Under the pieces are notes generated by a model. That model did no database searches and had not been told where the DNA came from. It saw only the letters and a list, made by a program, of their open reading frames with translations. From Candidatus Krumholzibacteriota bacterium (GTDB lineage: Bacteria > Krumholzibacteriota > Krumholzibacteriia > Krumholzibacteriales > Krumholzibacteriaceae), in NCBI GenBank assembly GCA_016933255.1, contig JAFGBF010000003.1, positions 62,001-126,000 of the forward strand: 64,000 bases of DNA, written 5' to 3'. Made by a program: the position numbers and the translations under genes. Positions 2,833 through 20,079 of the stretch are shown in pieces. Position 1 is the stretch's first letter; each line of letters opens with the position of its first letter.

Positions 2833-4032
2833 CTATTCAAGCAGGATCATTTTGCGCGTCTGCACGAACCGGCCTGATTGTAGACGGTATAAATAAACGC
2901 CCGAACTCACTCTCCGGCCGTTCATGTTCGTGCCATCCCACCACAAGGTATAAAAACCAGGGGCAGAATGACTGTCTACAAGTTTAGTAATCAGTTGACC
3001 ACGCACGTCATATATTCCGAGCGAGATCCGCATAGGAACTGACAGGCTATATTCGATGCAGGTGGACGGATTAAAAGGATTAGGGAAGTTCTGTCCGAGA
3101 GCTATAGCAGCGGGAGTTTCCTCATCTTCTGCCGCGTCAGCGGCGGTTGCATATCCACTCAGGCTGACCCACAAGTACCATGCGGCATAAGCCTTGCGAT
3201 TTGCATTCAGCGGTTCACTGTGAGCGGAGTTACAAAGATACCACTCCTCATTCTCGATATGCGACGACTGCCATTCCCTTGCCCAGTTGCCGAGGAGCTG
3301 ACCTGAGCTTGAGTAATAATCGCAGTTGTCATGGGGAAATGCAAAAAAAGTGCAATCAGGGTCGTAACTCTCGATGTCGGCAAAGTCGTACAGTATCTTG
3401 TTGTTGTTGAAACAGTAGGTACGGATCATATTATTGGCGGCTTTGATGTCGGCGTCTGCAAAATGGTCGACATGACCTGTCATGTAGACGAACATCACAT
3501 CTGGATAGTCGATCTCCAGCTGGCTCATGGGAGCGAGGTATTCGCTTTCAAGGGTACCGGCGGCGTATTTTTCGGCGGCTTGTCCGCACCACGACCAGAT
3601 GATGACGTTGGTCGCGGGGTGTATACTGATGTAATGCTCTGTCTCTTCCACCCATTGAGGATAATATCCAGCGTCTCCGACCATGGCATAATCGTGCAGG
3701 TGAAGGGCGCCGTCCGCTCCGCTGTTTTCCCACGCGAAAATATCTAACGGCAGATCCAGTCCCAGGCCTCCTCCGTTTGCAAAAACCACAAGCCCCGTCA
3801 TGCCGTCAGTGATCTGGCTTCCATGGGAGGTGTGCCCATAGGCTATGTGAAGTTCGGCTCTGGCCTGGTTGATTCCCGCTTCCGGAATGGTAGTGATGTC
3901 TGTACAGTTGTGATTGACGATCAGGGGTCTGGTTCGCTGAGCGGAAAGGGGCGAAGAAGCCGTCATCAGAATGACTGCCAGGCAGATATGCAAGAAACAC
4001 AACCGCGGAGATATATAGTCGATCTTGCTCAA
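2833..4032 (-). CDS. Secreted SGNH-like protein with FlgD/type IX-like C-terminal domain
   Basis: About 399 residues. There is a signal peptide (LCFLHICLAVILMTASSPLSA), a large globular domain, and a classic C-terminal sorting-type module beginning at ALGQNFPNPFNPS and ending in GVYLYRLQSGRF. The globular domain has AYGHTSHGSQ near its start, IIWSWCGQ in the middle and a late His in NSAHSEPLN. This order resembles SGNH hydrolases with a changed first block. A TTG start at 4032 is chosen because GGGGAT precedes it by four bases; a TTG at 4050 lacks an SD. A consensus-like promoter lies just upstream. I infer an extracellular esterase or deacylase of glycans; the substrate is unknown. Confidence 0.6.
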   Translation of the reverse strand: MSKIDYISPRLCFLHICLAVILMTASSPLSAQRTRPLIVNHNCTDITTIPEAGINQARAELHIAYGHTSHGSQITDGMTGLVVFANGGGLGLDLPLDIFAWENSGADGALHLHDYAMVGDAGYYPQWVEETEHYISIHPATNVIIWSWCGQAAEKYAAGTLESEYLAPMSQLEIDYPDVMFVYMTGHVDHFADADIKAANNMIRTYCFNNNKILYDFADIESYDPDCTFFAFPHDNCDYYSSSGQLLGNWAREWQSSHIENEEWYLCNSAHSEPLNANRKAYAAWYLWVSLSGYATAADAAEDEETPAAIALGQNFPNPFNPSTCIEYSLSVPMRISLGIYDVRGQLITKLVDSHSAPGFYTLWWDGTNMNGRRVSSGVYLYRLQSGRFVQTRKMILLE

Positions 4033-4088
4033 ATCATCCCCCGTACACAAATGAACGGTCTGTTGATATACGTTGAAGATAATGCCTG

Positions 4089-6049: not shown

Positions 6050-6114
6050 CCCACATGTGAATCGCTTAGGTATTCTCATTGCAACCCTTGCTTTGGTTTG
6101 ACAGGAAGGAACCG

Positions 6115-7608
6115 GTGTCAGAGATTCTCGGAAAAATGGTCAAGGGTTCGCTGCTGCGGATACTCAATCTTGTTACAATAGTCATTGTAAGTTTTTTTAT
6201 GATGCCTTTTGTGATAAGGGCGCTCGGTGACAGGTGGTACGGGCTTTGGATCTTTGCCGCAAGTATAGTCGGATATTATGGTTTTCTTGATATTGGACTC
6301 TCATCTGCTGTTCAGCGTTTCATTTCCCAGGCTCTCGGGACCGAGGACGATGAGGAAGTCAAAAAGATCTTCAATACGGCACTGTTTCTATTCTTTCTGG
6401 CTGGAATCCTGGTTCTCATAATATCGACAATAATCGTTGGAGTGTGTCCCTTCTTTGTAAAAGATTCTGCCGACGTCAATATATTCAGAGTAGTGATCTT
6501 CATAATCGGATTGGATGTCGCGATATCATTTCCGGTAAGGGCCTACATAGGATTGCTATGTTCGAATTTAAGACAGGACGTGGTGTTTTTCCTGGACATA
6601 TCCAAGGTTATTCTCAGGATGGGACTGATCCTCTATTTTCTCAGCCGCGGATATGGGATCATGACCCTTGCGGCAATCAATCTTTTTGTAGACATAGCGC
6701 AATATATAGCCACTGTCATTTATGTCAGTCTTAAGTTCAAGAAACTTGAGCTGAAGATATCCTATATCAGCAGGGATAGGGTCAAAAAACTTTTTGGGTT
6801 CAGTGTTTTTTCTTTTTTGGCGGCAGTTTCGGACCGTATAAGATTTCATACGGACAATTTTGTTATTACTGCCTTTCTCAATCTGGGAATGGTGACCCAT
6901 TACAGCATTGGTGCCAGGATCGCCATGTACTATTCGCAGATGATCCAGTCGGGGACTTCCCTGATATTTCCCGTCTTCAGCAAGCTTGAAGGACAGAAGG
7001 ATTTTGAACAGATCCGAAATAAATATATACTGATGATAAAGTTGACATCGATATTCTCCGTATTTGGGGGAGGGCTTGGAATAATCTTCGGGAAGGCTTT
7101 TATTTTCAGGTGGATGGGGCCGAATTACGTGGATGCGTACCCTGTGCTTGTAATACTGATCACCGGTATGCTGTTCCATTCGATCCAGGGTGTGTCGGCA
7201 GCGATCCTTCTGAGTCATTCGTACGAGAAAAAATATTCGATTTTCGTTGCTTCAGAGGCCTTTTTGAATCTTGTATTGAGCGTGATACTTGTGCACAAAT
7301 ATGGTGTGATAGGAGTGGCTTTGGGTACAATGATGCCTCTATTGCTTACAAGCATGACTATAATCCCGTTCTATGCGTGCCGAGCGATCGATTTCAGTTA
7401 TTCAAAATATATAAAGACTATTGCCATTTCGGTTTTATTCGGTTCTGCTACCTATCTGGGGTGCTGGTTCTTTGTCAGGAATGCTCTGGAGAACGAATAT
7501 TCGAGCATTCTTACTTTAGGGGTCTCTTCGGCGGTTATATTCCTGTTATTGAATATTTTTGTCCTTTTGAACAGAGAAGAAAGAAAACTGTTCAAGATTC
7601 CGCTGTGA
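6115..7608 (+). CDS. Wzx/MATE-like polysaccharide flippase
   Basis: About 497 residues, almost entirely membrane-spanning, with 12-14 predicted helices. The start (GSLLRILNLVTIVIVSFFMM, then ALGDRWYGLW) and the DIGLSSAVQRFIS segment are typical of the oligosaccharide flippase family in the MOP superfamily. It should move lipid-linked repeat units across the inner membrane for polymerisation. GTG at 6115 is preferred because AGGAAGGA precedes it; a TTG at 6079 has no SD. A consensus-like promoter lies upstream and the next gene follows after 46 bases. Substrate specificity cannot be read from sequence. Confidence 0.85.
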   Translation: MSEILGKMVKGSLLRILNLVTIVIVSFFMMPFVIRALGDRWYGLWIFAASIVGYYGFLDIGLSSAVQRFISQALGTEDDEEVKKIFNTALFLFFLAGILVLIISTIIVGVCPFFVKDSADVNIFRVVIFIIGLDVAISFPVRAYIGLLCSNLRQDVVFFLDISKVILRMGLILYFLSRGYGIMTLAAINLFVDIAQYIATVIYVSLKFKKLELKISYISRDRVKKLFGFSVFSFLAAVSDRIRFHTDNFVITAFLNLGMVTHYSIGARIAMYYSQMIQSGTSLIFPVFSKLEGQKDFEQIRNKYILMIKLTSIFSVFGGGLGIIFGKAFIFRWMGPNYVDAYPVLVILITGMLFHSIQGVSAAILLSHSYEKKYSIFVASEAFLNLVLSVILVHKYGVIGVALGTMMPLLLTSMTIIPFYACRAIDFSYSKYIKTIAISVLFGSATYLGCWFFVRNALENEYSSILTLGVSSAVIFLLLNIFVLLNREERKLFKIPL

Positions 7609-7654: not shown

Positions 7655-8821
7655 ATGTTAAAAGAAATCATAAAGGGCATGAGGATCCTTAATGCCAGAA
7701 TCGACCTTGAGGTCAAGAAAATCAGATTCAGGAAGATATACTGTTATCGACAGCCAACAGATTATGATCATCAGACACATATCACCGAGGCTGCTCAATG
7801 GTTGTGCAGGGCGCAGGACGCAGGACTGGATGATGGAGTGGCGTACGGCACTGATTTTGGAAAAGGTTTTCTTGCCAGTTATCCTGAAACTACCGGATAT
7901 ATTATCTGCACATTTCTGAAACTTGCTGATTATTTTCAAGATGATGAGTATTTCAAAAGGGCGAAAAGAATGGGCGACTGGGAAATTGATATTCTACTGG
8001 ACTCAGGGGCTGTCATGGGCGGAATGGCAGACTCGGAAAAGATCACCCCTGCCGTATTCAACACAGGACAGGTTCTGCTGGGGTGGAACTTTCTTTACAT
8101 AAAAGATCATGAAAAAAAATATTATGATGCCGCAGAGAAAGCGGCTGGATGGCTGCTGGAGATGCAGGATGAGAATGGTGGATGGAGCCGAGGAAACTCT
8201 CTTTTTTCAAGACCTGATGCGACGACCTATAATGCAAGAGTGGCCTGGGCTTTGTGTCAGTTCGGAGTAATATCTGGAGAAAACAAGTATATTAAAGCGG
8301 GAATCAAAAATGCGGAGTACTCAATGAATCACCAGATTGATAACGGCTGGTTCAGGGATTGCTGCCTGCTGAATCCGGAACATCCTCTGCTGCATACTAT
8401 CGCTTATACGATGAGAGGACTTCTGGAGGCCGGGATTATCTGCCGAAGGGATGAATTTATCGAGAGCGCTGATAGATCCGCACAAAGTCTGGTGAATATG
8501 ATAAGAGAAGACGGGTACCTCCCCGGCAAGATAGATTCCGAGTTTCATGCTGCCGCTGACTACGCGTGTTTAGCGGGAATCGCTCAGTTATCCATAGTCC
8601 TGTCGAAATTGTACAGGATAAAAAAAGAAGAGATATATAAACTTTCAGCTAAGAGATTGAATGAATACTTGATGAGGCACCATGATATTTCCTCAACCGA
8701 CGATAGCATCCGTGGCGGACTGGCGGGATCCTGGCCTGTCAGCGGTGAGTACGGCCGTTTCAGGATCCTCAACTGGGCAACAAAGTTTCTGATCGATGCT
8801 TTGCTCGAGGAGCCATCATAA
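7655..8821 (+). CDS. Alpha/alpha-toroid protein of the polysaccharide locus
   Basis: 388 residues without a signal peptide. It is made of repeated helical hairpins with motifs such as YPETTGYIICTFL, FNTGQVLLGWNFL and MQDENGGWSRG. This is the pattern of six-hairpin (alpha/alpha)6 toroids found in terpene cyclase-like proteins, glucuronyl epimerase C-terminal domains and several glycosidases. It follows the flippase on the same strand and its end overlaps the end of a convergent glycosyltransferase gene by six bases. I infer a cytoplasmic enzyme of sugar or lipid-sugar modification. No catalytic residue can be assigned, so it stays without a function. Confidence 0.65.
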   Translation: MLKEIIKGMRILNARIDLEVKKIRFRKIYCYRQPTDYDHQTHITEAAQWLCRAQDAGLDDGVAYGTDFGKGFLASYPETTGYIICTFLKLADYFQDDEYFKRAKRMGDWEIDILLDSGAVMGGMADSEKITPAVFNTGQVLLGWNFLYIKDHEKKYYDAAEKAAGWLLEMQDENGGWSRGNSLFSRPDATTYNARVAWALCQFGVISGENKYIKAGIKNAEYSMNHQIDNGWFRDCCLLNPEHPLLHTIAYTMRGLLEAGIICRRDEFIESADRSAQSLVNMIREDGYLPGKIDSEFHAAADYACLAGIAQLSIVLSKLYRIKKEEIYKLSAKRLNEYLMRHHDISSTDDSIRGGLAGSWPVSGEYGRFRILNWATKFLIDALLEEPS

Positions 8822-9919
8822 AGAATCTATCATCCTGGTGAACAGTTTTATATAAACAGGCCCGGATAGGTTTTCATCTACATATTTTTTTGCCTTGGCG
8901 CCCATTTCTCTTGCTACTGTCTCGTTTTCGAGAAGATACCTCATTTTTTCAGCAAGATCAGAAATGTTTTCTTTCTCAAAAAGAAATCCGGTTTCACCCT
9001 CTGCAACAAGTGATGGTATTCCGCCTGTATTCGACCCTATGACCGGTTTTCCGCTGGCCATTGATTCTATTATGACTCTTCCCATTGCCTCTGATCTCGA
9101 TGGAAGGACAAAACAGTAGCAGTTTTTCATCTCACTGATGATCTCTTCATAAAAAACCGGTTTTTGTATCTTAATCATTTTATTATTTCCAGCGAGAGCC
9201 AGGTAGTAGTCAGGATCCGGGCAATGACCTATTATTTTCAGTGAAAAATCGCTGTGATCCGCAGATATCATGTTGAATGCCTTGATAAGGATATCCACGC
9301 CCTTTAGAAAGAATGGATGACCGATAAAAAGCAGGTATTTGTCAAATCGCGGTTCTCCATCACTGAAAAGGTAGGTGGGAACGAAGTCAATGAATACTTC
9401 CGGATCGGAGATTCCCGCCAATCTGGAATATATTTGAGCATGTTGATGATTAAGAAATTTTACTTTATCCGCTTTTTTCAGAAGAAAGGCAGTAAGCCTG
9501 CTAATAAAATTTCTTTTCATTTTCCGAAGCCGTGTAAGTTCACCGAGAAATCCCGCATTCATTACATCCCCGTTAACTTCGATAACAAGTTTTGAACGAG
9601 TAAATATCCTTAGCAGACAAGCGCTGATCCCGCACATAAGCGGGTCGTAAGCCACGATTACGTCGATCTTCTTTTTTCCATGGGAGATCAGCCCGTAATA
9701 GAGAACTCCAAGAACAAAAACAATATGTTTAAGGATATTGATCTGGATTATCGGTATGGAGAAGAACTTGAAATTTCCAAATACGCATTTATTGTGTCGT
9801 CTGGGAGAAAAGGCGACTATATCACCGTGATATGAGTCAGAAAGGAGTTTATATTTATCGCTGAAATTCGGAAGTTCGGGCCGGTACTGAAGAACGTTTA
9901 TAAAAAAGATCTTTTTCAT
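8816..9919 (-). CDS. Glycosyltransferase family 4
   Basis: About 367 residues starting MKKIFFINVLQY. It has the GT-B fold with a clear nucleotide-sugar site in the C-terminal half: LFIGHPFFLKGVDILI, then SEAMGRVIIESMASGKPVI with the E-x7-E pair, and NTGGIPSLVAEGETGFLF. The ATG at 9919 is preferred over a TTG at 9961 that overlaps the upstream gene. It is the last gene of a three-gene leftward operon with the O-antigen ligase and the GT2 enzyme. It should add one sugar to the lipid-linked repeat unit. Donor and linkage are unknown. Confidence 0.85.
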   Translation of the reverse strand: MKKIFFINVLQYRPELPNFSDKYKLLSDSYHGDIVAFSPRRHNKCVFGNFKFFSIPIIQINILKHIVFVLGVLYYGLISHGKKKIDVIVAYDPLMCGISACLLRIFTRSKLVIEVNGDVMNAGFLGELTRLRKMKRNFISRLTAFLLKKADKVKFLNHQHAQIYSRLAGISDPEVFIDFVPTYLFSDGEPRFDKYLLFIGHPFFLKGVDILIKAFNMISADHSDFSLKIIGHCPDPDYYLALAGNNKMIKIQKPVFYEEIISEMKNCYCFVLPSRSEAMGRVIIESMASGKPVIGSNTGGIPSLVAEGETGFLFEKENISDLAEKMRYLLENETVAREMGAKAKKYVDENLSGPVYIKLFTRMIDSL

Positions 9920-9957
9920 ATCTGGCTGCCGCTTTCTCTCTGATTTGAATCGATCTG

Positions 9958-11331
9958 TCAATAAAGCATTGAAAGGACTTTAAAAGCGATTATCGACAAA
10001 AATTCAATAGCAATGATTATTATAAGTTCGTGTTTGTTGATGACCGGTGAAATTATTCCAAAATCATCCTTCAATTGCATTGTAAAGAGTGCTGCTATGG
10101 CAAAAAGAATATATATGATCGGGCTATAGGTCTGTGACAGGAAAAAAGCTGAGACAAGGAACCCGATAATTGAGACCTGAGTGATTCTTGAGTACAGGAC
10201 AACATTTGAATCGGACGATATCCTTTCGATCTTGATCAAATCCCTGAGGCTGGTGTATATCAGGGCGATCCAGACGAAATATCCGACAAGTCCCAGCTCT
10301 GCCATACATTTTATATATGCGCTGTGAGCTGCCCTGTCATGGAGGAATGTAAACTTGTGCATCCCGACGCCCAGGACAGGGTGTGATTTCAGCATGACCA
10401 GTCCTGATATCCAGGCAAATATCCTGCCGCTTTCAGATTGTCCGTACGGCGAGATGTTTGACATCCGGCCTGGAGATGCGACAATCATGATCAAAGCCAG
10501 CGTACAGCCGATGAAAAGCCCCTTCTTCAGTCCCCATCGTTTGACCGGGAATGCGAGCATGACGGCGATCAGGGCAATTTGTCCACCTCTGGAGTCTGTG
10601 TAATAGATCGCCAGCAGGAATATGCATAACAGGATCGAGAGGACGAATCGTCCAGAAGTTTTTGTTTTGGGCTCAAAGATGTGAAAGAGAAGGATTGGAA
10701 TCGTAGCGACAAGAGCCAGCGCAAAATCATTCGGGTCTCCGAAAGTGCCTACCCATCTTATCCTTCCGGCAACGGGAACCTGTCCGAAGAGATCAATTCC
10801 GTTATAGTGCTGCAGAAATCCGTTTAGAGACATAAAGAGAAGAGCGAAAACTGTACTCCAATAGAGGATGTTATATTTCTTTCCGGCTATCGTTGTGATC
10901 ATGACAAAGGCAAGATATATCGTCAGAAATTCATTAAAGGAGTTCCAGGCCGCGTCCAGCCTGAAGTTGGAGAGGTCGCTTAGCGGAACGATCAGAAAGA
11001 AGATGAACATCAGTATCTGCTGTCTTGTCAAAAAGAGTCCGAAATTCTCCTTTCTGACGATTTTATGCGCCAGAGCGAACCCGATTATTATAATCGCCAG
11101 ATTCAACATGATTCTCATCGGTGACAGAGCAGGGAGGAAGTCCTGGGGCCTGACATATATAAGTCCTATATACAGGGCCAGTCCGACAAAAGGGTTAAAG
11201 AAGACTGTTATGCCAATGATCAGTCCGGCGAGAAGGAGAAAAGCAATTTTTACCGAGATCAGAGTCACCGAGGCGATGATAGCTGCTGCTATCGTTATTA
11301 AAATCAGAATAATTGTATTTTGACTTTTCAT
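9958..11331 (-). CDS. O-antigen ligase/polymerase family protein
   Basis: This 457-residue integral membrane protein has about 10-12 helices. It has the Wzy_C-type core YYTDSRGGQIALI before a periplasmic loop. The early motif ALYIGLIYVRPQDFLPAL resembles the ligases associated with exosortase-A polysaccharide loci (O-glycosylation ligase type). Members join or polymerise undecaprenyl-linked glycans on the periplasmic face. Its ATG overlaps the stop of the upstream GT2 gene in an ATGA junction, so translation is probably coupled. Whether it acts as polymerase or as ligase cannot be told from sequence. Confidence 0.8.
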   Translation of the reverse strand: MKSQNTIILILITIAAAIIASVTLISVKIAFLLLAGLIIGITVFFNPFVGLALYIGLIYVRPQDFLPALSPMRIMLNLAIIIIGFALAHKIVRKENFGLFLTRQQILMFIFFLIVPLSDLSNFRLDAAWNSFNEFLTIYLAFVMITTIAGKKYNILYWSTVFALLFMSLNGFLQHYNGIDLFGQVPVAGRIRWVGTFGDPNDFALALVATIPILLFHIFEPKTKTSGRFVLSILLCIFLLAIYYTDSRGGQIALIAVMLAFPVKRWGLKKGLFIGCTLALIMIVASPGRMSNISPYGQSESGRIFAWISGLVMLKSHPVLGVGMHKFTFLHDRAAHSAYIKCMAELGLVGYFVWIALIYTSLRDLIKIERISSDSNVVLYSRITQVSIIGFLVSAFFLSQTYSPIIYILFAIAALFTMQLKDDFGIISPVINKHELIIIIAIEFLSIIAFKVLSMLY

Positions 11332-12479
11332 CGATTACCGGGCCCCGTATCCTTTTTCCATCTGGCATCAGGCTTAAAGAATAGATATCTGTATAATCCG
11401 ACCACTGCGGCCGTGTTTAATGATAAAAAAAGTGATACAAAATTCAACAATCTGATCTTTTTTAATCTGCCGCTCATAAGAGCGATCGATCCCGAAAAAT
11501 AAATTGCGATCTGGATCCAGAAAAGGACCGTATATATGGTTTGTGAGACTGACCCTGATGCTGTGACTGAAACGATCAAAGCATATGGACTGAGGAGACG
11601 AAACCATTTGTGCGATATCGATTGAAAGAATATCCTGTTTTTCAGCGGGTTAAATAACCATGGATTGTTGGCGAAGAGTTGAAAATTTCCGGTCAGTGTC
11701 CGTACTTTTCTCCTGAATTCGATCCCGATCCTTGATGATGCGTCGTCGTATGCGATCGCGGCAGGTTCAAAAATGACTCTGTATCCCTGTTTCAGGGCTT
11801 GCGCCGGAATTGCGACGTCATCAAGGATAGTATCATCAGGAATAGGGGAGATCAATCTTCGTCTGACTGCGTATATTGCTCCAGTTGCTCCCAGCGTGGA
11901 GTCGACCCTCGATTCGGCGACTCTCAGCATCTTTTCGTATTTCCAGTATAGCCCTATATTGGTTCCCGAATCGTTCTTTCCCGAAGACAGTACAAGTTCT
12001 CCGCTCACACATCCAACTTTGGGATCGTTAAAGTTTCTGACGAGCTTTATCAGCGAATCTTCTTTATATGTCTGACGTACGTCCGAGAATACGATAATGT
12101 CACTTACCGTCTTTTCTACTGCTTTGTTGATCTGATGCGGTTTGCCCCAATTTTCCGCGTCTTCAATAAAATAAATATCATTATCTTTTCCAAGGATATC
12201 GTTTGTTCCATCAGTCGATCCGTCTGACACGACGCATATTTCGAAAAGATCTTGAGGATAGTCCAGAGTCTTGCAGTTTTCGAGCTTGGACGCGATTTTA
12301 TTTTCTTCATTGTAAGCTACAATGATCATAGTTATGGAAGGAAGTCCCATATCATTATCATCGGTCAGTACAGGTTTATTTTTAATCCTGGCCAGGCTGA
12401 TGATGATAATGGGATAGACCAGATAAGTATATATGACAAATGCGGCTGATATCCAGAATAAATAAATACTCATTATCAA
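11328..12479 (-). CDS. Membrane glycosyltransferase family 2
   Basis: 383 residues with one N-terminal membrane helix, a GT-A domain and two to three C-terminal helices. The catalytic domain shows MIIVAYNEENKI, CVVSDGSTDGT (DxD-like), FSDVRQTY and DDVAIPAQALKQGYRVIF; the set matches processive or initiating GT2 enzymes of exopolysaccharide synthesis. It is the first gene of the leftward operon that continues into the ligase and a GT4 enzyme. A TTG at 12479 has GGAT six bases upstream, while an ATG at 12473 is two codons inside; either may be used. Confidence 0.8.
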   Translation of the reverse strand: MIMSIYLFWISAAFVIYTYLVYPIIIISLARIKNKPVLTDDNDMGLPSITMIIVAYNEENKIASKLENCKTLDYPQDLFEICVVSDGSTDGTNDILGKDNDIYFIEDAENWGKPHQINKAVEKTVSDIIVFSDVRQTYKEDSLIKLVRNFNDPKVGCVSGELVLSSGKNDSGTNIGLYWKYEKMLRVAESRVDSTLGATGAIYAVRRRLISPIPDDTILDDVAIPAQALKQGYRVIFEPAAIAYDDASSRIGIEFRRKVRTLTGNFQLFANNPWLFNPLKNRIFFQSISHKWFRLLSPYALIVSVTASGSVSQTIYTVLFWIQIAIYFSGSIALMSGRLKKIRLLNFVSLFLSLNTAAVVGLYRYLFFKPDARWKKDTGPGNR

Positions 12480-12755: not shown

Positions 12756-13778
12756 TTGAAATTGCAGGTTTCAGATCATATCGACGCAGAGGAATGGGAC
12801 AGAATGGTATCCCTGCTGGGAGGGACCATTTTCCACTCAAGTGTCTGGGCGAGGTATTCCAGGGCTGTTCAGACAAATCTTACCGAATTGTATGTTACGT
12901 GCGTCAATGAGGAAGGCGCCGCCGTCGGGGCGGCTCTTGTGTTTGTTGAGAATTCAAGGAATAGGATCGTCAACTTATTTACAAAACGTATGCTGCTGTT
13001 CGCCGCACCCGCGGCAAACGATGATAATGCGGTGCTGCACGAAATCATCCTAAAGCTCGAAGAGTACTGCCGAAAAAAGGGTTTTGTACAACTGAGTATA
13101 TACAGCTACGCATCTGCCGATATATCGGAGCAGCTTATTAAAGGTGAATATGATCTTACGTCTCGATATGAGTTTATTCTTGATCTTGATCGATCTGAAG
13201 AACAATTGTGGATTGGAATGGAGAGAAAACTTCGTCAGAGTATTAATAAGGCAAAAAAAATCGGAGTGACTATCCATGAATTTCCGGATGAGGAAAGTAT
13301 CGCCGCGCTTGATCAGCTTCAGGATAGTACCGCTGACCGCATATTAAGCTCTAAAGGTATTGACATTCATCGATCGCGAACAAGAACAGCCGATCCTGTC
13401 GCAATTATTCTAGAAGCGGGGGCAGGGCGTATTTTTTCCGCTGTCGTCGATGAGGAAATAGTGAGTGCCAGTCTTTTTACGGTTTTTAACGGCAAGGTCT
13501 ATCATACGCTGTCAGGCGCAAATACCAAGGCGTTGAAGACGGAGGCCCCGAAGCTTCTGATCTGGGATGCGATAACAAAATTCAAGGCTTGTAAAGCCAG
13601 GAGTTTCAATCTTAGCGGGTGTAAAATGGATGCAAGAGATCCGGATTCTTCCGAGTATGGCGTATATAATTTCAAAAAGAAATTCGGCGCTGATATGGCA
13701 GAATGCGCCAGCGGGGAGAAGATCATTGGGGGGAAAAGGGCTGGATTGTTCAACCTTGTAAGATCTGTTACCAGATAA
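12756..13778 (+). CDS. FemAB/BioF2-like GNAT transferase
   Basis: 340 residues with a double-GNAT layout typical of FemABX proteins and of the FemAB family linked to exosortase-A systems. Visible features are EEWDRMVSLLGGTIFHSSVW at the start, KLRQSINKAKKIGVTI (the conserved R..i.kAkk.gv motif) and, near the end, LSGCKMDARDPDSSEYGVYNFKKKFGA (residues about 285-312). Family members transfer aminoacyl or acyl groups to cell-envelope precursors. TTG at 12756 follows AGAAGAGG by seven bases. It has its own promoter and stands alone between two leftward operons. The acceptor is unknown; modification of the nearby polysaccharide is an inference. Confidence 0.7.
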   Translation: MKLQVSDHIDAEEWDRMVSLLGGTIFHSSVWARYSRAVQTNLTELYVTCVNEEGAAVGAALVFVENSRNRIVNLFTKRMLLFAAPAANDDNAVLHEIILKLEEYCRKKGFVQLSIYSYASADISEQLIKGEYDLTSRYEFILDLDRSEEQLWIGMERKLRQSINKAKKIGVTIHEFPDEESIAALDQLQDSTADRILSSKGIDIHRSRTRTADPVAIILEAGAGRIFSAVVDEEIVSASLFTVFNGKVYHTLSGANTKALKTEAPKLLIWDAITKFKACKARSFNLSGCKMDARDPDSSEYGVYNFKKKFGADMAECASGEKIIGGKRAGLFNLVRSVTR

Positions 13779-13824: not shown

Positions 13825-14823
13825 TTAGATCGCGCTATCAAGTTTCTTTTTTACCATAGCGATTATATCCGGATCTGTCTTTTCATCGAGCCTTGCTATC
13901 GCTTCGTCACGTTCCATATAACCAGCTCTTACCAGTCCGGCCAGCTCAAAGGCGTAGGGATGGAAGCCGAAGCGTTTTTGATGAATATCGATCCCCATAG
14001 CGTTAAGAAGACAATTCGTTGAATTCGGATCTGTATCGTCAGGTTTTTCCCAACCGAGGAGTTTGATATATTCAAGTATCTTATCTTCATCGTATTCGAG
14101 AAAAGCGAGCGGACTGATATTGTAAGGGAATCTTTCCGGCATATTGAAATGTTTTTCAGTAAGAAAGTAGTTGTCGACCTCATCACCCACGATCTTTTTC
14201 ATCGGAACAGTAAACTGAGCCTGCATCGTTTTGATCATCTCGGGATTATTGCGGAATATGGAAGCCTCAACAGGGGCCTGACCGGGGGACCAGCCGTATA
14301 TGATCAGCGGTATACTGCTTTCTATAGCATATCTGAGCGCGACGAATTTCACCAGTCCCATACATGTTGTGCAGATAGAACTGGCTCTTTCGAGCCCTTT
14401 TCGGGAGTAGATATCCTCTTTTGCGCTGTGAAGGAAGAGCCTGCCCAGGGTGTCCATCCTGGGTTTGTAGATGATATGGTCCACGCCCAGTCCCTCGACG
14501 ACGTTTCGGATGTTGTCCAGAGATTTTGGAGATATGAACCCGTTGTCAAGAGTCAGGGCGAGAAAAGAGATATCGTATTCCTTTTTTAATACCGCCATGG
14601 TGAAGGTAGAATCTTTTCCTCCACTGTAAGCCATTACAGCGTCATATTCTCCCACCCTCTTGTTTTCAGCGAGAATTTTTTCGAAACGGACGCGGTATTT
14701 TTTAATAGACTGCTGGAGACGTTCGACTCCTTTGAACCTTCCGCAGAAATTACAGACGCCGTCCTCGTCAAAGCGTATGCCAGGGTACGTCTCCGGGAGT
14801 ACACATCTTGTACAGCGTTTCAT
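13825..14823 (-). CDS. N-acetyl sugar amidotransferase (WbpG/PseA-like)
   Basis: This 332-residue protein has an N-terminal pair of CxxC motifs (Cys4, Cys7, Cys24, Cys27) and an ATP pyrophosphatase loop SGGKDS at residues 67-72. A further ICTTC pair lies near residue 150. This matches the N-acetyl sugar amidotransferase family, which uses ammonia from a HisH-type glutaminase to turn an N-acetyl group into an acetamidino group on surface sugars. No hisH/hisF-like partner is in the window. It is the last gene of the leftward four-gene operon and overlaps the stop of the NadE-like gene by four bases, so the two are probably co-translated. Confidence 0.8.
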   Translation of the reverse strand: MKRCTRCVLPETYPGIRFDEDGVCNFCGRFKGVERLQQSIKKYRVRFEKILAENKRVGEYDAVMAYSGGKDSTFTMAVLKKEYDISFLALTLDNGFISPKSLDNIRNVVEGLGVDHIIYKPRMDTLGRLFLHSAKEDIYSRKGLERASSICTTCMGLVKFVALRYAIESSIPLIIYGWSPGQAPVEASIFRNNPEMIKTMQAQFTVPMKKIVGDEVDNYFLTEKHFNMPERFPYNISPLAFLEYDEDKILEYIKLLGWEKPDDTDPNSTNCLLNAMGIDIHQKRFGFHPYAFELAGLVRAGYMERDEAIARLDEKTDPDIIAMVKKKLDSAI

Positions 14824-15797
14824 GATAACGACCTTTCAGGAGAAGGCGGAAGCATCCTGAGCGTCTCGGTTGTCTTCTTTTTTCTGTCGAGATCTTTCCA
14901 TGCTCGTTCAATCTGCTCGACGGTAAGTCCTATTGATGCCGCCGCTATGTCGGCCGGGATACCATTCAGAGCCGCATACAAAACCAGATCAAAAGTGTTG
15001 TATGGCATACAAAAATAGAAATCCTCGTCGCTTACCGGGAGGCTGTAAGTGTCCGGAGTCGGCGTACGCTGAATGATCTCGTTTGGAACTCCCAGATATT
15101 TTCCAAGATCGAACACCTGTTTCTTGTAAAGGTTGGCCAAAGGTTCTATATCAACGCCTCCATCACCGTATTTCACGAAGAACCCCTGAATCGTCTCTGG
15201 AAGGTTGGTTGTACCGCAGACTATATAATATCTTTTGTCTGCCTCGTAATACATCTGCGTCATCCGAACCCTTTGTTTTATGACATTGGCGGCCATCATC
15301 TTCAGATAATCCTTGTGAGCAAGTCGTATTGACTCTATTTTTCCGTCCTTTTTCTCAATATCGAGATGATACGCGCTGATCCTGTCCCTTTCCAAAAGGT
15401 CCTGGGGGAGAGTAAGCCTGAATTTCATCTCTCCATCGTAATCAGGAAAATACTTTTTAACTATGGAATTTCTTTTCGCGTAAACGCCGAATCCCGTAAG
15501 CATAGGTGTTATTTCGACAGTATTGTAGCCTATTCCAAGCGAATCTGCGCAGAGGCGGCCAAATCTGCTGCTGTCCGGGCTTGAATCCTTTTCCGGCAGG
15601 ATCACGCCGAAGACACGATCCGGGCCGAGAGCCCTGACCGAGAGGGCGGCTGCTACAGATGAATCTATTCCACCGCTCAGGCCGATAATTATTCCTTTTC
15701 TATGAAAGACATTCTTCACTTGATCTCTAATAAATCCGACCAGATCGTTAGTAAGTTTTTCAGCTTCGATATCGAGGACGCTATTCGTGAATTCCAT
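14820..15797 (-). CDS. NAD synthetase-like ammonia-dependent amide ligase
   Basis: 325 residues of the NadE family. It has the ATP pyrophosphatase loop LSGGIDSS (about residues 40-47), NVIKQRVRMTQMYYEADKR and FFVKYGDGGVDIEPLANLYK. Two usual NadE signatures differ: GTGNKSE is here GTTNLPE, and the segment after it reads TPTPDTYSLPVSDEDFYF instead of the usual glycine-tryptophan-rich loop. No glutaminase domain is present, so free or channelled ammonia is needed. It lies between an AMP ligase and a sugar amidotransferase in one operon. It may be the housekeeping NAD synthase, but the context suggests a paralogue that amidates another carboxylate. Confidence 0.7.
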   Translation of the reverse strand: MEFTNSVLDIEAEKLTNDLVGFIRDQVKNVFHRKGIIIGLSGGIDSSVAAALSVRALGPDRVFGVILPEKDSSPDSSRFGRLCADSLGIGYNTVEITPMLTGFGVYAKRNSIVKKYFPDYDGEMKFRLTLPQDLLERDRISAYHLDIEKKDGKIESIRLAHKDYLKMMAANVIKQRVRMTQMYYEADKRYYIVCGTTNLPETIQGFFVKYGDGGVDIEPLANLYKKQVFDLGKYLGVPNEIIQRTPTPDTYSLPVSDEDFYFCMPYNTFDLVLYAALNGIPADIAAASIGLTVEQIERAWKDLDRKKKTTETLRMLPPSPERSLS

Positions 15798-15850
15798 TAA
15801 TCGGTGCCTCCAGAGGTCGAGTGAATTTCTATTCTTTATCAGCCGGCTGT

Positions 15851-17401
15851 TTATTCAAGCCCTTTTACCGTAATTTTCCCTGTCGAAGTCTTTGGAAGAG
15901 ACTTTCTTAACTCAATATATTTTGGAACCATGAAGTCTTCAAGGTTCTTCGCGCAATGAGCGAGGATGATATTCTCCGTAAGCCCTGAACCTTCCCTGAT
16001 CACGACAAAAGCTTTGATTGCTTCGCCGAACAGGTCATCAGGGACTCCGATAACGGCAGCTTCAACGACTCCCTCAAGAGAATATATAGCGTTTTCTACT
16101 TCTTTCGGGCTGACTTTTTCCCCCCGGCTCTTGATAATATCGTCCATCCTGGACACAAAATATAGAAACCCTTCATCATCTTTCCTGAACAGGTCTCCTG
16201 TATAGAGCGATTTTTCCCATGGATGGAGTCCGGGCCTGAGCCGCTCTGCAGTCTCCTCCGGAAGTTCCCAATATCCTTTCATTACATTCGGTCCCCGTAC
16301 GACGAGTTCTCCGACCTTTCCGGCTTCGTCGATTATCCCGTCTTCTTCATCTACGAGATAAACCTGAACGTTCGGCATTTCCTTTCCGACAGAACCAGGC
16401 CTGCGGGGCAGTTCGTCTGGCGGGAGGTATGAGACTCTTTTACATTCAGTAAGTCCGTACATCGAATAAATCGCTGCCGAAGGGAATATTTTCCGGAGCC
16501 CTTCGATGTGGCTGACCGGTAAAGCTGCGGCCGTATTGGTAATATAGCGAAGAAACGAAAAATCTTCTTTTCCAAGATCTTTCATCTGCAGAAGCAGAGA
16601 GGAGATAGTCGGGACTATGGGAAAACCCGTCACCTTCTCGTCCTTCATCTTTTTTATTACGGCATAGGGATACGTGAAGGATCTTTCAAGAACGACCGTT
16701 CCTCCGAATTGAGCAGCCATGAGTATCTGGTAGAGGCCGTAATCGAAGGAGAAGGGGAGGACGTTCAATATGATATCGTCTTCTCGGTTTTCAAGATAGC
16801 TGGTTATCGATGTAGACGCGGATATTATGTTGTAATGGGTCAGCATCACGCCTTTCGGATTTCCGGTCGTGCCTGAAGTATAGATCAGGGCGGCCAGATC
16901 AATATCGATCGTTCTGATCGATGGCGGAGTCTCGCCGCTGTTTCCCATTGCTTCGTCCCACGAAAAAAACCGGATATTATCAGGAAGAGACCCTATCGAG
17001 TCTTCGGCCGGGAAGCCCGTGGATATTACAGTCCGCAAAGACGAAATATCAGAAAGAATATCACCGGCAGCGTTCCATCTGGAGCTGCTCGTTATAAGGC
17101 AGGATGTCCTGCAGTCGTTGAGTATATATTTGATCTTTTGTGATTTTGTGGAAGGATTTAATACGATAAAGACACCGCCGGCTTTCAAGATGCCCCAGAT
17201 GCTTATAACCGTTTCGATCGAGTTATCAATGAAGACGGCTGCTCTCTCCCCATATTCGAATCCGGAAGACCGCAGACTGACAGCAAGGCTGTTTGCGGCC
17301 TTTTCAATATCGTAAAATGTATAGCGGTCCTCCCCCTTAATAACGGCGGCCTTATCAGCGAGGCGTTGAGCGCTGTTTTCAAGGAAATTTTGAACAAGCA
17401 T
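15851..17401 (-). CDS. AMP-forming acyl-CoA/acyl-ACP ligase (exosortase-A-locus type)
   Basis: 516 residues of the ANL superfamily. The P-loop LIYTSGTTGNPKG spans about residues 172-184. Other motifs are YSMYGLTECKR, YTGDLFRKDDEGFLYF and the catalytic lysine in KTSTGKITVKG at the very end. The N-terminus (MLVQNFLENSAQRLADKAAV) resembles the acyl-CoA ligase subfamily found in exosortase-A exopolysaccharide loci. It would activate a carboxylic acid as an adenylate and load it on the acyl carrier protein encoded 38 bases upstream. The natural acid is unknown. Confidence 0.8.
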   Translation of the reverse strand: MLVQNFLENSAQRLADKAAVIKGEDRYTFYDIEKAANSLAVSLRSSGFEYGERAAVFIDNSIETVISIWGILKAGGVFIVLNPSTKSQKIKYILNDCRTSCLITSSSRWNAAGDILSDISSLRTVISTGFPAEDSIGSLPDNIRFFSWDEAMGNSGETPPSIRTIDIDLAALIYTSGTTGNPKGVMLTHYNIISASTSITSYLENREDDIILNVLPFSFDYGLYQILMAAQFGGTVVLERSFTYPYAVIKKMKDEKVTGFPIVPTISSLLLQMKDLGKEDFSFLRYITNTAAALPVSHIEGLRKIFPSAAIYSMYGLTECKRVSYLPPDELPRRPGSVGKEMPNVQVYLVDEEDGIIDEAGKVGELVVRGPNVMKGYWELPEETAERLRPGLHPWEKSLYTGDLFRKDDEGFLYFVSRMDDIIKSRGEKVSPKEVENAIYSLEGVVEAAVIGVPDDLFGEAIKAFVVIREGSGLTENIILAHCAKNLEDFMVPKYIELRKSLPKTSTGKITVKGLE

Positions 17402-17439
17402 AATATTTATTGATGAAAGGTGATGGGAGAACCCCCTGG

Positions 17440-17685
17440 TTACTCCTGTTTCCTGCCGACATATGAGACCAGCCGGTCGAGCGAATCAAAATTGTCCGGC
17501 ACGAGCTCATCGTCAGTTACTTCGATATTGAATTCATCCTCGACAAATCCTACAAGTTCAAGGATTCCTGTGGAATCAATTATCCCGGATTCGAGAAATG
17601 AATCACTATCGCCCAGCGAAGCATCGTCTAACCCGAAAAGAAAGTTTTCTATGACAAACCCCTTGAGCTGTTCCCTGATCTCCAA
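17440..17685 (-). CDS. Acyl carrier protein
   Basis: 81 residues, acidic and helical, with the phosphopantetheine serine in GIIDSTGILELV (Ser38). The start is TTG at 17685 because AGGAGG (17692-17697) precedes it by exactly six bases; longer frames would add a non-conserved extension. It is the first gene of an operon with an AMP ligase, a NadE-like synthetase and a sugar amidotransferase, so it probably carries a dedicated acyl or aminoacyl group for surface polysaccharide modification rather than serving bulk fatty-acid synthesis. Confidence 0.85.
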   Translation of the reverse strand: MEIREQLKGFVIENFLFGLDDASLGDSDSFLESGIIDSTGILELVGFVEDEFNIEVTDDELVPDNFDSLDRLVSYVGRKQE

Positions 17686-17754
17686 GAAGAGCCTCCTAAA
17701 AATAGTGAGATCCAATCTGCTCTCTACAGATTTTGTCAAAAAAAGAATAATTAC

Positions 17755-17878: not shown

Positions 17879-18526
17879 TTATATAAGTCCATTCAGAAAA
17901 GGGTTTTGAGCCTTTTCAACCGCGATCGATGTCGAGGGACCATGTCCGCAGAATACGATCGTTTTATCAGGAAGAGAGAACAGATTCGTCCTGATCGATT
18001 CCAGAAGCGTATTCATATCTCCGCCGAAGAAGTCGGTCCTGCCTATTGACCGGGCAAAAAGTGTATCTCCTACGAACACCACGCCGTCGATATATAGACT
18101 TATTCCACCAAGAGTATGGCCCGGAGTGTCGATGATTCTTCCCTCCAGATCGCCGAATTTGATGGTATTATCCGAAGAAAGGGTCATTACCGAATCGGGG
18201 GCCTCGATATTTCCAAGTCCCCACATAGGGGCATCTTCAATCGATTTTTTCATCGTTTCCACATCTTTTTCGTGGATATAGATATCAATTCCGTACGATC
18301 GCGAGAGTTCCGCGGCGGCTGCCATATGGTCGCTGTGCCCGTGGGTAAGCAGGATCTTGACTGGAAGGATCTTCTCGGCAGAGATGTGGTCTGTGATCTT
18401 TCCGGCGTCTCCACCCGGATCGATGATGACCGTTTTCATCGTCTTCCTGCAGGAGAGCAGGTAACAGTTTGTCGCAAGCGGCCCCACGACCATCTCGCCG
18501 ATCCTTACAGTGCTATCCTTATCCAT
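17879..18526 (-). CDS. MBL-fold metallo-hydrolase (glyoxalase II-like)
   Basis: 215 residues with the complete metallo-beta-lactamase signature: THGHSDH (His62, His64, Asp66, His67), DTPGHTLGGISLY, FVGDTLFARSIGRTDFFGG and FCGHGPSTS. These bind two metal ions. The length and layout match small glyoxalase-II-like hydrolases that cleave thioesters. It is the last gene of the leftward group with the barrel protein, the flavoprotein and the ferredoxin, 38 bases after the ferredoxin. The physiological substrate is unknown. Confidence 0.85.
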   Translation of the reverse strand: MDKDSTVRIGEMVVGPLATNCYLLSCRKTMKTVIIDPGGDAGKITDHISAEKILPVKILLTHGHSDHMAAAAELSRSYGIDIYIHEKDVETMKKSIEDAPMWGLGNIEAPDSVMTLSSDNTIKFGDLEGRIIDTPGHTLGGISLYIDGVVFVGDTLFARSIGRTDFFGGDMNTLLESIRTNLFSLPDKTIVFCGHGPSTSIAVEKAQNPFLNGLI

Positions 18527-18564
18527 ATATCCAACCTTTGAATCGGTATAAACCCCGGATCCTT

Positions 18565-18771
18565 CTACTTAAAATCAGGGCAGATCAACGCACCCACAGG
18601 GCATACAAGCGCCGCCTGCCCGCAGGGGCGGCATCGCCCGGGAAATGACCTCAAGACCATCCCCTCGATAATGAGCGCTTCACTCGGGCAGACGGCAGAA
18701 CAAGCGCCGCACGCCGTACAGAGCGCGCGGTCGATCCTTATCTCATGATTTTTACTGCTATCGTCAGACAT
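18565..18771 (-). CDS. Dicluster-type ferredoxin with an incomplete second motif
   Basis: 68 residues from the ATG at 18771. The first motif, CTACGACSAVCP, has all four cysteines (18, 21, 24, 28). The second, CRPCGQAALVCP, has alanine where the third cysteine of a 4Fe-4S motif is expected; Cys64 in ICPDFK might compensate. It may therefore bind one 4Fe-4S cluster and one altered cluster. It lies 87 bases after the geranylgeranyl-reductase-like gene and probably delivers electrons to that flavoprotein, as ferredoxins do for some archaeal homologues. That partnership is an inference from position. Confidence 0.75.
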   Translation of the reverse strand: MSDDSSKNHEIRIDRALCTACGACSAVCPSEALIIEGMVLRSFPGRCRPCGQAALVCPVGALICPDFK

Positions 18772-18858
18772 CCGGATTATAACCTTTTTCCATTTCTTTT
18801 TCAATCACAGGTTCAGGGATCTCCATCTGTCTCCTCTTGGCATTTTCATCATTTTCTG

Positions 18859-20079
18859 TCAGTTCTTTCCTGCGTTGTTCTTTTCTTTCAGTATTGAGAG
18901 GATGATCCCGAACGCAAGGGATGGACTGGACAGGAGCAGGGATCTTACGATCCTCGCGGGATCAGCTCCCAGACTGCTGAGTAATCCCGGTTCTCTGCTG
19001 AGTTTTTTCAGGGCTTTCTCCATTTTTCGATCGTTAAGGCTGTAGAATACCTGTGCCGCTTTGTAAAACAGGTCATTTCTTGTCCCCTCTGATCTTTTCC
19101 AGTTTTCCGAGTACCTGTTGAGTATTTCATAGGAGCCTGTTCCGGCTTCAACCGCTTCTGCCACGCTCTCAGCTGCCGTATCGGCTGCAATCAGCGCTGA
19201 AAGAATACCTCCGCCTGATAACGGGTTGTTTTGATTTGCGGCTTCTCCGACAACGACATAGCCGTCGACCGCGAGGGAAGGAAGTTCTTTTGCCACTTCG
19301 CAGGCGCCGATCACCTGTCTCTGACGCTTTCCTCCCGGGGAGCGATATTCAAGAAAATCATTCAGATACTCTAAAGCAGTCTTATTGCCTGCCTTCAAGG
19401 GAGAGATCCCTACTCCGAGATTGGCGCTGCTCGAAGTCTTCGGGAAGACCCATGCGTAACCCCCCGGAGCCCGGTCATATCCCAGGTGGAACTCTATAAA
19501 TTTCTTTTCGACATCTATCCCTTCGATCGTTTCCTGGGCGCAGACCAGCATATCTGATGTAGTGAGGTTCTGTTTCAACCCCGCCCAGCGCGGAGAAAGG
19601 GATTCAACCCCATCGGCGCCTATAACCACAAAAGATACTGCTGAATATCGAGCGCCTGAAGAAAGGTCGATAATTTTTACCCCCGAGATCTTTTCCCCTT
19701 TTCGGATCAGACCGACCGCCTGATGAGAAGTTCGCAGGACGGCACCGGCTTTTACGGCGGAGGCTGCCAGGTGTTCGTCAAATTTTGTGCGGTCCAGAAT
19801 CATTCCGACCCGAGGCATTCTGGCGTCGAAACTGCGGCCTTTCGGCGATACGACAGTTATTCCGTTGACAACAGAGGAGACAAAGGCCTTATCTATCTCC
19901 ATCAGCTCTTCAAGCTGGGAAACAGGTCCGATCGCCTCAGCACACCTTACCGGGGTACCGATCTTTCCCCTTTTTTCTATAAGAAGGACGGAATGTCCCC
20001 GGGAAGCAACACGCTCAGCCGCCCTTGACCCTGCCGGGCCTGCACCGATAACTATTACGTCAAAGGTTTCAGGTCTCAT
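18859..20079 (-). CDS. Geranylgeranyl reductase family flavoprotein
   Basis: 406 residues. The FAD-binding Rossmann motif VIVIGAGPAGSRAAERVASR begins the protein, and the PHBH-type set continues with VIGADGVESLSPRWAG and the late FAD motif VVVGEAANQNNPLSGGGI. The motif RAPGGYAWVFPK is characteristic of the geranylgeranyl/digeranylgeranyl reductase family, which saturates double bonds of polyprenyl chains. The ATG overlaps the stop of the upstream barrel gene by one base (TAATG), and a ferredoxin gene follows. Likely substrates are a polyprenyl quinone or lipid carrier; a halogenase or hydroxylase role is less likely. Confidence 0.75.
   Translation of the reverse strand: MRPETFDVIVIGAGPAGSRAAERVASRGHSVLLIEKRGKIGTPVRCAEAIGPVSQLEELMEIDKAFVSSVVNGITVVSPKGRSFDARMPRVGMILDRTKFDEHLAASAVKAGAVLRTSHQAVGLIRKGEKISGVKIIDLSSGARYSAVSFVVIGADGVESLSPRWAGLKQNLTTSDMLVCAQETIEGIDVEKKFIEFHLGYDRAPGGYAWVFPKTSSSANLGVGISPLKAGNKTALEYLNDFLEYRSPGGKRQRQVIGACEVAKELPSLAVDGYVVVGEAANQNNPLSGGGILSALIAADTAAESVAEAVEAGTGSYEILNRYSENWKRSEGTRNDLFYKAAQVFYSLNDRKMEKALKKLSREPGLLSSLGADPARIVRSLLLSSPSLAFGIILSILKEKNNAGKN

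Follow-up and report, generated by a model that had tools for sequence, protein, structure and literature searches.

A close described counterpart of the gene cluster studied here is a ligase-carrier pair of Sinorhizobium meliloti. Ligase SMb20650 is reported to be cotranscribed with the acyl carrier protein (ACP) SMb20651 and to acylate this carrier in E. coli, while being no substitute for FadD (PMC7232532); a 2017 paper still calls the function of SMb20651 open (PMC5686131). Here we describe a related four-gene operon in a 64,000-nt stretch (the window) of contig JAFGBF010000003.1 from a Candidatus Krumholzibacteriota bacterium. It encodes an ACP, an AMP-forming ligase, a NadE-like ATP pyrophosphatase of subfamily PRK00876 (NF002048) and a WbuX-like amidotransferase. 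The two systems share the ligase-ACP pair and a NadE-type gene, whereas AsnB in S. meliloti is replaced by WbuX in the window. The NadE-like enzyme probably belongs to an amide-forming route that is so far uncharacterised and in many cases modifies surface sugars. We assign a probability of about 0.5 to the reading that the operon represents a widespread carrier-protein module in its WbuX version: the ACP would receive an acid, which would be amidated and transferred to an acceptor that is often a sugar.

Exopolysaccharide genes of XrtA/PEP-CTERM systems encode the same enzyme classes (ligase TIGR03098, amidotransferase TIGR03108 and FemAB protein TIGR03019), but the window-type proteins all score below the cut-offs and the XrtA/PEP-CTERM family names include no NadE partner. 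As described in PMC7468200, VimA, which matches TIGR03019, governs the amino acid (Ser/Gly) placed on an amino sugar, AsnB-type WbpS forms uronamide in P. gingivalis, and the authors speculate about amino-acid-modified sugars in exosortase systems. In Azospirillum brasilense, a third NadE isoform that lacks a glutaminase domain was detected by proteomics and was not pulled down by GlnZ (PMC7646526). This isoform would be the product of an Azospirillum plasmid gene that scores 468 bits with PRK00876 and sits with genes for ACP, ligase and AsnB.

Reading of the open reading frames (ORFs) gave a minus-strand operon, transcribed in the following order.

17440-17685, minus strand: ACP, about 81 aa, with a TTG start and the phosphopantetheine Ser within GIIDSTG
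15851-17401, minus strand: AMP-forming ligase, 516 aa (PF00501/PF13193), predicted to charge the ACP with an acid
14820-15797, minus strand: NadE-like PRK00876-type ATP pyrophosphatase, 325 aa (NF002048), predicted carboxamide former
13825-14823, minus strand: WbuX-like PP-loop protein of the N-acetyl sugar amidotransferase type, 332 aa, with CxxC...CxxC and SGGKDS

The genes are separated by 38 nt (ACP-ligase) and 53 nt (ligase-NadE), and the last two overlap by 4 nt. The initial annotation was right about the tight spacing and the families. The ACP end coordinate it gave, 17685, equals the TTG six bases past AGGAGG (17697-17692), which is the likelier start in an ORF spanning 17440-17739. 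The ACP scored 25.3 bits with PF00550; its closest NCBIfam is NF052616 (ACP for OlsHI; 50 bits, below the cut-off of 130), and the DS motif is kept in 35/35 linked ACPs called. The ligase scored 286 bits with PF00501 and 478 bits with TIGR03098, below the cut-off of 592, which was reached in none of the 78 genomes of our set from the window's phylum. Its best whole-length single-enzyme relative in the PDB is 3wvn (238 bits). The NadE-like protein (PF02540, 167 bits) is a full member of PRK00876, with 403 bits against a cut-off of 313, and also exceeds the TIGR00552 cut-off (158.6 vs 63.65 bits). Domain searches found no glutaminase domain in it, in agreement with the initial annotation. The WbuX-like protein aligns over its whole length with TIGR03573 (WbuX/PseA-type N-acetyl sugar amidotransferases) and shares the Cys pattern and SGGKDS, but its score of 150.3 bits stays below the cut-off of 203.2; among linked homologues SGGKDS occurs in 18/18 and the Cys pattern in 13/18. 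Since their scores fall below the cut-offs, the ligase and the WbuX-like protein are, judged by sequence, relatives and not members of TIGR03098 and TIGR03573.

The association with a carrier protein is usual in the subfamily. A scan of named genomes covered the best 80 of at least 566 relatives and comprised 37 PRK00876-type and 43 canonical loci, classified by similarity to the window protein, with partners detected by tblastn at bit cut-offs of our own setting and with loci on truncated contigs included. A partner (ACP, ligase, AsnB or WbuX) was present within 6 kb in 34 of the 37 PRK00876-type loci vs 1 of the 43 canonical ones. Ligase and ACP were each found in 27 of the 37 loci, AsnB in 26 and WbuX in 2, and a ligase was combined with AsnB or WbuX in 20. 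No partner lay within 6 kb at L100 (Gemmatimonadota), L117 (KSB1) and L125. The quartet of AsnB, ACP, ligase and NadE was found in nine same-strand orders; therefore, the linkage is not merely one inherited arrangement. A lineage-specific curiosity is ruled out by the spread of the PRK00876-type loci among these best 80 relatives, which includes Planctomycetota, Zixiibacteriota, Myxococcota, Ignavibacteriota, Gemmatimonadota, Pseudomonadota, Spirochaetota, Actinomycetota, Nitrospirota, Acidobacteriota, Bacteroidota, Methanobacteriota and candidate division KSB1.

AsnB-type amidotransferases are the core partner across phyla, and the WbuX-like version occurs mainly in relatives of the window. 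The sugar amidotransferase that was initially proposed as the partner thus stands mainly for the window and its relatives, and not for the subfamily at large. A WbuX version was also found in a Methanomicrobiaceae archaeon, with WbuX on the strand opposite to NadE, and a Sedimentisphaerales locus has both AsnB and WbuX. Plasmid matches comprised 122 records, mainly from Sinorhizobium, Azospirillum and Ensifer, and AsnB-ACP-ligase-NadE is present in annotated plasmid records of Nitratireductor, S. meliloti and Shinella. The S. meliloti operon, annotated on pSymB of strain RCAM1115, has 99.3% identical DNA in strain 1021. The strain 1021 record, NC_003078, carries no gene tags; from the replicon and the gene pair we infer that its ligase-ACP pair is SMb20650/SMb20651. 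A search of the open-access literature found no paper on an association between NadE-like and carrier proteins.

The same linkage was apparent within the window's phylum, where 50 of the 78 genomes bear PRK00876. Apart from the window, 13 fetched loci have NadE and WbuX side by side, which is more than chance; ten of the 13 also have ACP and ligase, and in these ten the order ACP-ligase-NadE-WbuX recurs; gene calling left some of the fetched loci without a called NadE. Other families of the window's class have AsnB-ACP-ligase-(PrmC-like)-NadE or a lone NadE. The ligase was found in 35/50 bearers vs 3/28 non-bearers (Fisher p 3e-7, without kinship correction). We also fetched 15 ligase loci from genomes in which the ligase lay elsewhere. 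AsnB-ACP-ligase was present in 13 of these (one truncated by its contig), and 11 of the 13 belong to PRK00876 bearers. Among bearers whose ligase was distant from the NadE-like gene or on a different contig, G033 was the one exception. Two genomes (G032 and G033) have the ligase without AsnB or ACP. An AsnB of the window's class (L056) scored 382 bits with TIGR03108, below the curated cut-off. A HemK/PrmC-type methyltransferase lies inside the module in L056 (7220-8110), L043, L045, L052 and L101, with NPPY in 6/6. Known members of this family methylate glutamine amides, according to NCBIfam names, which hints at N-methylation of an amide. One further locus (L059:8107-12023) has the arrangement NadE-ACP-ligase-NadE, with two divergent PRK00876 paralogues from separate tree regions around one ACP-ligase pair.

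The NadE-like gene is not the only nadE of the window genome, which spans 2.58 Mb in 31 contigs and is about 91% complete. A canonical glutaminase-fused NAD synthetase is encoded at C6:42478-43227 (NF010588, 723 bits, cut-off 479). This second nadE, which the initial annotation had proposed to look for, together with the distinct sequence of the subfamily, supports its view of the NadE-like protein as a paralogue. A separate nadE match, scored as strong at E < 1e-50, was found in 43 of the 50 bearers. A separate canonical match exceeds 190 bits in six of eight named genomes reached via their loci; in Nocardioides the sole match, within a 728-aa frame, has 60 bits, and in a Flavobacteriaceae metagenome-assembled genome (MAG) no separate canonical match was found.

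To describe the subfamily, 84 PRK00876-type rows were aligned with 45 canonical rows. One genome contributes two of the 84 rows (L100 and L050, identical in the tree), and two genomes contribute a second paralogue (L059 and L080). L100 is a MAG named Gemmatimonadales, from which its phylum Gemmatimonadota was taken, and the same MAG is also among the genomes of the window's class. All 84 rows form a single clade in a quick maximum-likelihood tree (Shimodaira-Hasegawa-like approximate likelihood ratio test, SH-aLRT, 99). The initial annotation had pointed to GTTNLPE and TYSLPVSDEDF as altered signatures; they are present, but they are signatures of PRK00876 as a whole and not of the window gene alone. 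Three regions set the window protein apart from canonical NadE.

15300-15455 (approximate), minus strand: about 50 extra residues in the interval from SGGIDS to RVRM (about 115-166; the model shows three short strands here), borders estimated
15012-15062, minus strand: rewritten active-site loop, residues 246-262, PTPDTYSLPVSDEDFYF
14856-14870, minus strand: C-terminal motif TETLR, residues 310-314, at the place of canonical [HFY]K

The distance from the PP-loop Ser (SGG) to the RxRM Arg is 134-142 residues in 83 PRK00876-type rows, whereas it is 80-93 residues in 40/44 canonical rows, with three rows at 119 and one at 134. In the loop, which replaces canonical A-x-[LM]-W..Q..DE, Thr250 is invariant (84/84); in 44/45 canonical rows this position is Leu, Met or Ile. 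The canonical Asp-Glu pair of the loop (43/45 and 42/45) is lost in PRK00876-type rows, one Asp excepted. The Lys of the C-terminal motif is present in 41/45 canonical rows and in 0/84 PRK00876-type rows (2 gaps); in canonical enzymes this Lys presumably binds deamido-NAD, at its far, adenosine end. Features shared with TIGR00552 are the SGGIDS PP-loop and the catalytic-site columns Thr196, Glu201 and Lys225, which like Arg176 are invariant in the 84 rows. Asp216 (84/84) and Lys209 (82/84) are retained as well, and Arg176, Lys209 and Asp216 are residues that we take to correspond to deamido-NAD contacts of B. subtilis NadE. An AlphaFold2 model of the window protein (predicted local distance difference test score, pLDDT, 93.6) has the NAD-synthetase fold. 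Together with the different genomic company, these comparisons show PRK00876 to be a distinct subfamily behind the ordinary nadE annotation, linked to a carrier-protein pathway and with a proposed function. An assay of a PRK00876 member was not found in the open-access literature. The two-subunit NADS of Thermus as an assayed member is unsupported, since the sole match at E 1e-80 among 14 control genomes was in Methanosarcina acetivorans.

The genes that flank the operon in the window point to a glycan locus on one side.

12756-13778, plus strand: FemAB/GNAT-type acyltransferase, adjacent and divergent, candidate user of the acyl-ACP (PF02388, 67 bits; PF13480, 32 bits)
11328-12479, minus strand: family 2 glycosyltransferase
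9958-11331, minus strand: O-ligase-like protein (TIGR03097, 117 bits, below the cut-off of 188)
8816-9961, minus strand: family 4 glycosyltransferase
6079-7608, plus strand: flippase-like protein
17879-20079, minus strand: metallo-beta-lactamase (MBL)-fold GloB-like hydrolase, ferredoxin-like protein and geranylgeranyl-reductase-family protein, in the region directly upstream of the ACP gene

The glycosyltransferase, O-ligase-like, flippase and FemAB genes adjoining the operon make it likely that the window module serves a surface glycan, as initially proposed; the S. meliloti operon, for which no glycan genes were found in the annotated 9-kb flanks, does not follow this pattern. The glycan context fits the window and not every locus. 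The FemAB/GNAT-type protein scored 27.8 bits with TIGR03019, below the cut-off of 260. Neighbour families were scanned for 131 hand-picked ORFs, mostly the nearest of 267, a sample that yields no rates; hexapeptide transferases and glycosyltransferases lead, polysaccharide deacetylases are also present, and weak GNAT-like and hexapeptide-type proteins lie near other modules. With the FemAB protein of the window, this suggests acyl transfer, often in glycan loci.

The MBL, ferredoxin-like and geranylgeranyl-reductase-family genes are kept in close relatives; in the window and in 8 fetched loci the MBL gene adjoins the module, and any functional tie to the module is conjectural. Between the flippase-like gene and the glycosyltransferases, 7655-8821 (plus strand) encodes a protein whose weak matches to squalene-hopene-cyclase, pectate-lyase and GH88/GH76 families predict an alpha-toroid fold. 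The window genome has one exosortase (EpsH, 231 bits), on a contig other than that of the operon (C22:107498-108262), and 42 Por_Secre_tail matches; a weak tail of this kind is present in window 2833-4050.

A pathway can be proposed from these observations. First, the ligase would adenylate a small acid, probably an amino- or dicarboxylic acid, and load it on the ACP. Second, the PRK00876 enzyme, as a substrate-shifted NadE and not a housekeeping NAD synthetase, would adenylate a carboxylate of the acid, free or ACP-bound, and attack by ammonia would give a primary amide. Third, AsnB, or the WbuX-like protein in the window, would insert a second nitrogen or serve an alternative nitrogen step. 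Fourth, a FemAB/GNAT or hexapeptide-type acyltransferase would hand the group on to an acceptor. For the window the likeliest acceptor is an amino sugar from the neighbouring glycan locus, on which the WbuX-like protein could form an amidine. The first step rests on the S. meliloti ligase-ACP report, and we infer the other three, the substrates and the order. Amide formation by the NadE-like enzyme is proposed because of the family chemistry (ATP-dependent amidation), the company of AsnB or WbuX, and the PrmC-type methyltransferase with NPPY in several relatives. The neighbourhood connects the NadE-like gene with a carrier-protein pathway that has a second enzyme for nitrogen insertion. An unrecognised amidation route, as the initial annotation had it, is plausible, and this core idea holds better than the glycan detail.

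Several observations weigh against this reading. Many genomes of the window's class (L048 and similar) have a lone PRK00876 gene beside Rrf2, phosphotransacetylase (pta) and acetate kinase (ackA) genes; in these loci adenosine deaminase is on the far side of PRK00876. No ligase was found at E 1e-110 in 15/50 bearers, and two drafts that lack a PRK00876 match (G055 and G069) have AsnB-ACP-ligase. The lack of glycan genes around the S. meliloti operon also belongs here. A shared amino-acid substrate of the ligases is unsupported, as the position of the amino-group aspartate of nonribosomal peptide synthetases is Asp in only 16/37 linked ligases; the acid may vary between modules because the ligase pocket does. 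Finally, Arg176, Lys209 and Asp216, used by canonical ammonia-type enzymes near the reacting end, are kept, so that nicotinic acid adenine dinucleotide (NaAD) may remain a substrate, and seven of the 50 bearers (G011, G023, G025, G027, G029, G043 and G079) have no strong separate nadE, which leaves room for a role in NAD synthesis. Among the seven, G079 is 96% complete and G043 has a partial canonical match on a short contig.

The conserved Arg, Lys and Asp at canonical-site positions, whose presumed role is taken from canonical enzymes, would also suit amidation of a nucleotide-linked uronic acid, e.g., conversion of UDP-hexuronate to the uronamide, with ACP and ligase decorating the same sugar separately. 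The shift from NaAD to UDP-uronate would be small, since both share a nucleotide-pyrophosphate-sugar-carboxylate layout, and the glycosyltransferases, hexapeptide transferases and polysaccharide deacetylases among the neighbours, as well as the WbpS uronamide of P. gingivalis (PMC7468200), are in line with this. However, AsnB, the type known to form uronamides, is present in 26/37 loci, where a second such enzyme would be redundant, and the S. meliloti operon has no glycan genes in its annotated flanks. We consider this explanation rather unlikely.

It is likewise improbable that PRK00876 is a second, ammonia-dependent NAD synthetase for local or special-condition NAD supply, with the gene order reflecting co-regulation. 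The NCBI name, NAD(+) synthase, claims this activity, and the TIGR00552 score, the fold of the model and the seven bearers without a strong separate nadE are compatible with it. On the other hand, canonical nadE is present in 43/50 bearers, linkage to ACP, ligase or amidotransferase genes in 34/37 loci has no evident NAD reason, and the loop, insert and C-terminal lysine are altered. An NMN synthetase amidating nicotinic acid mononucleotide (NaMN), as described for the Francisella NadE homologue that shifted from NAD synthesis (PMC3376133), is very improbable: that enzyme (3fiu) is the top VIA-align match of the model (Z 29.9), but tied with the NAD synthetases 2e18 (29.8) and 1xng (29.4), in the structural alignment it retains the canonical loop PSAGLWQGQTDE that PRK00876 lacks, and the ACP-module linkage is left unexplained.

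The carrier-protein reading can be extended, tentatively, to a portable amidation pathway of ACP, AMP-ligase, AsnB or WbuX and PRK00876 that spans 12 or more named phyla, one of them archaeal, and in which a descendant of NadE forms a carboxamide on a carrier-bound acid and the whole of PRK00876 is misnamed; we regard this broader version as possible. If it is true, a subfamily annotated as the maker of an essential cofactor does something else, which would affect metabolic models and annotation in many phyla, and the S. meliloti ACP SMb20651 would gain a concrete set of partners.

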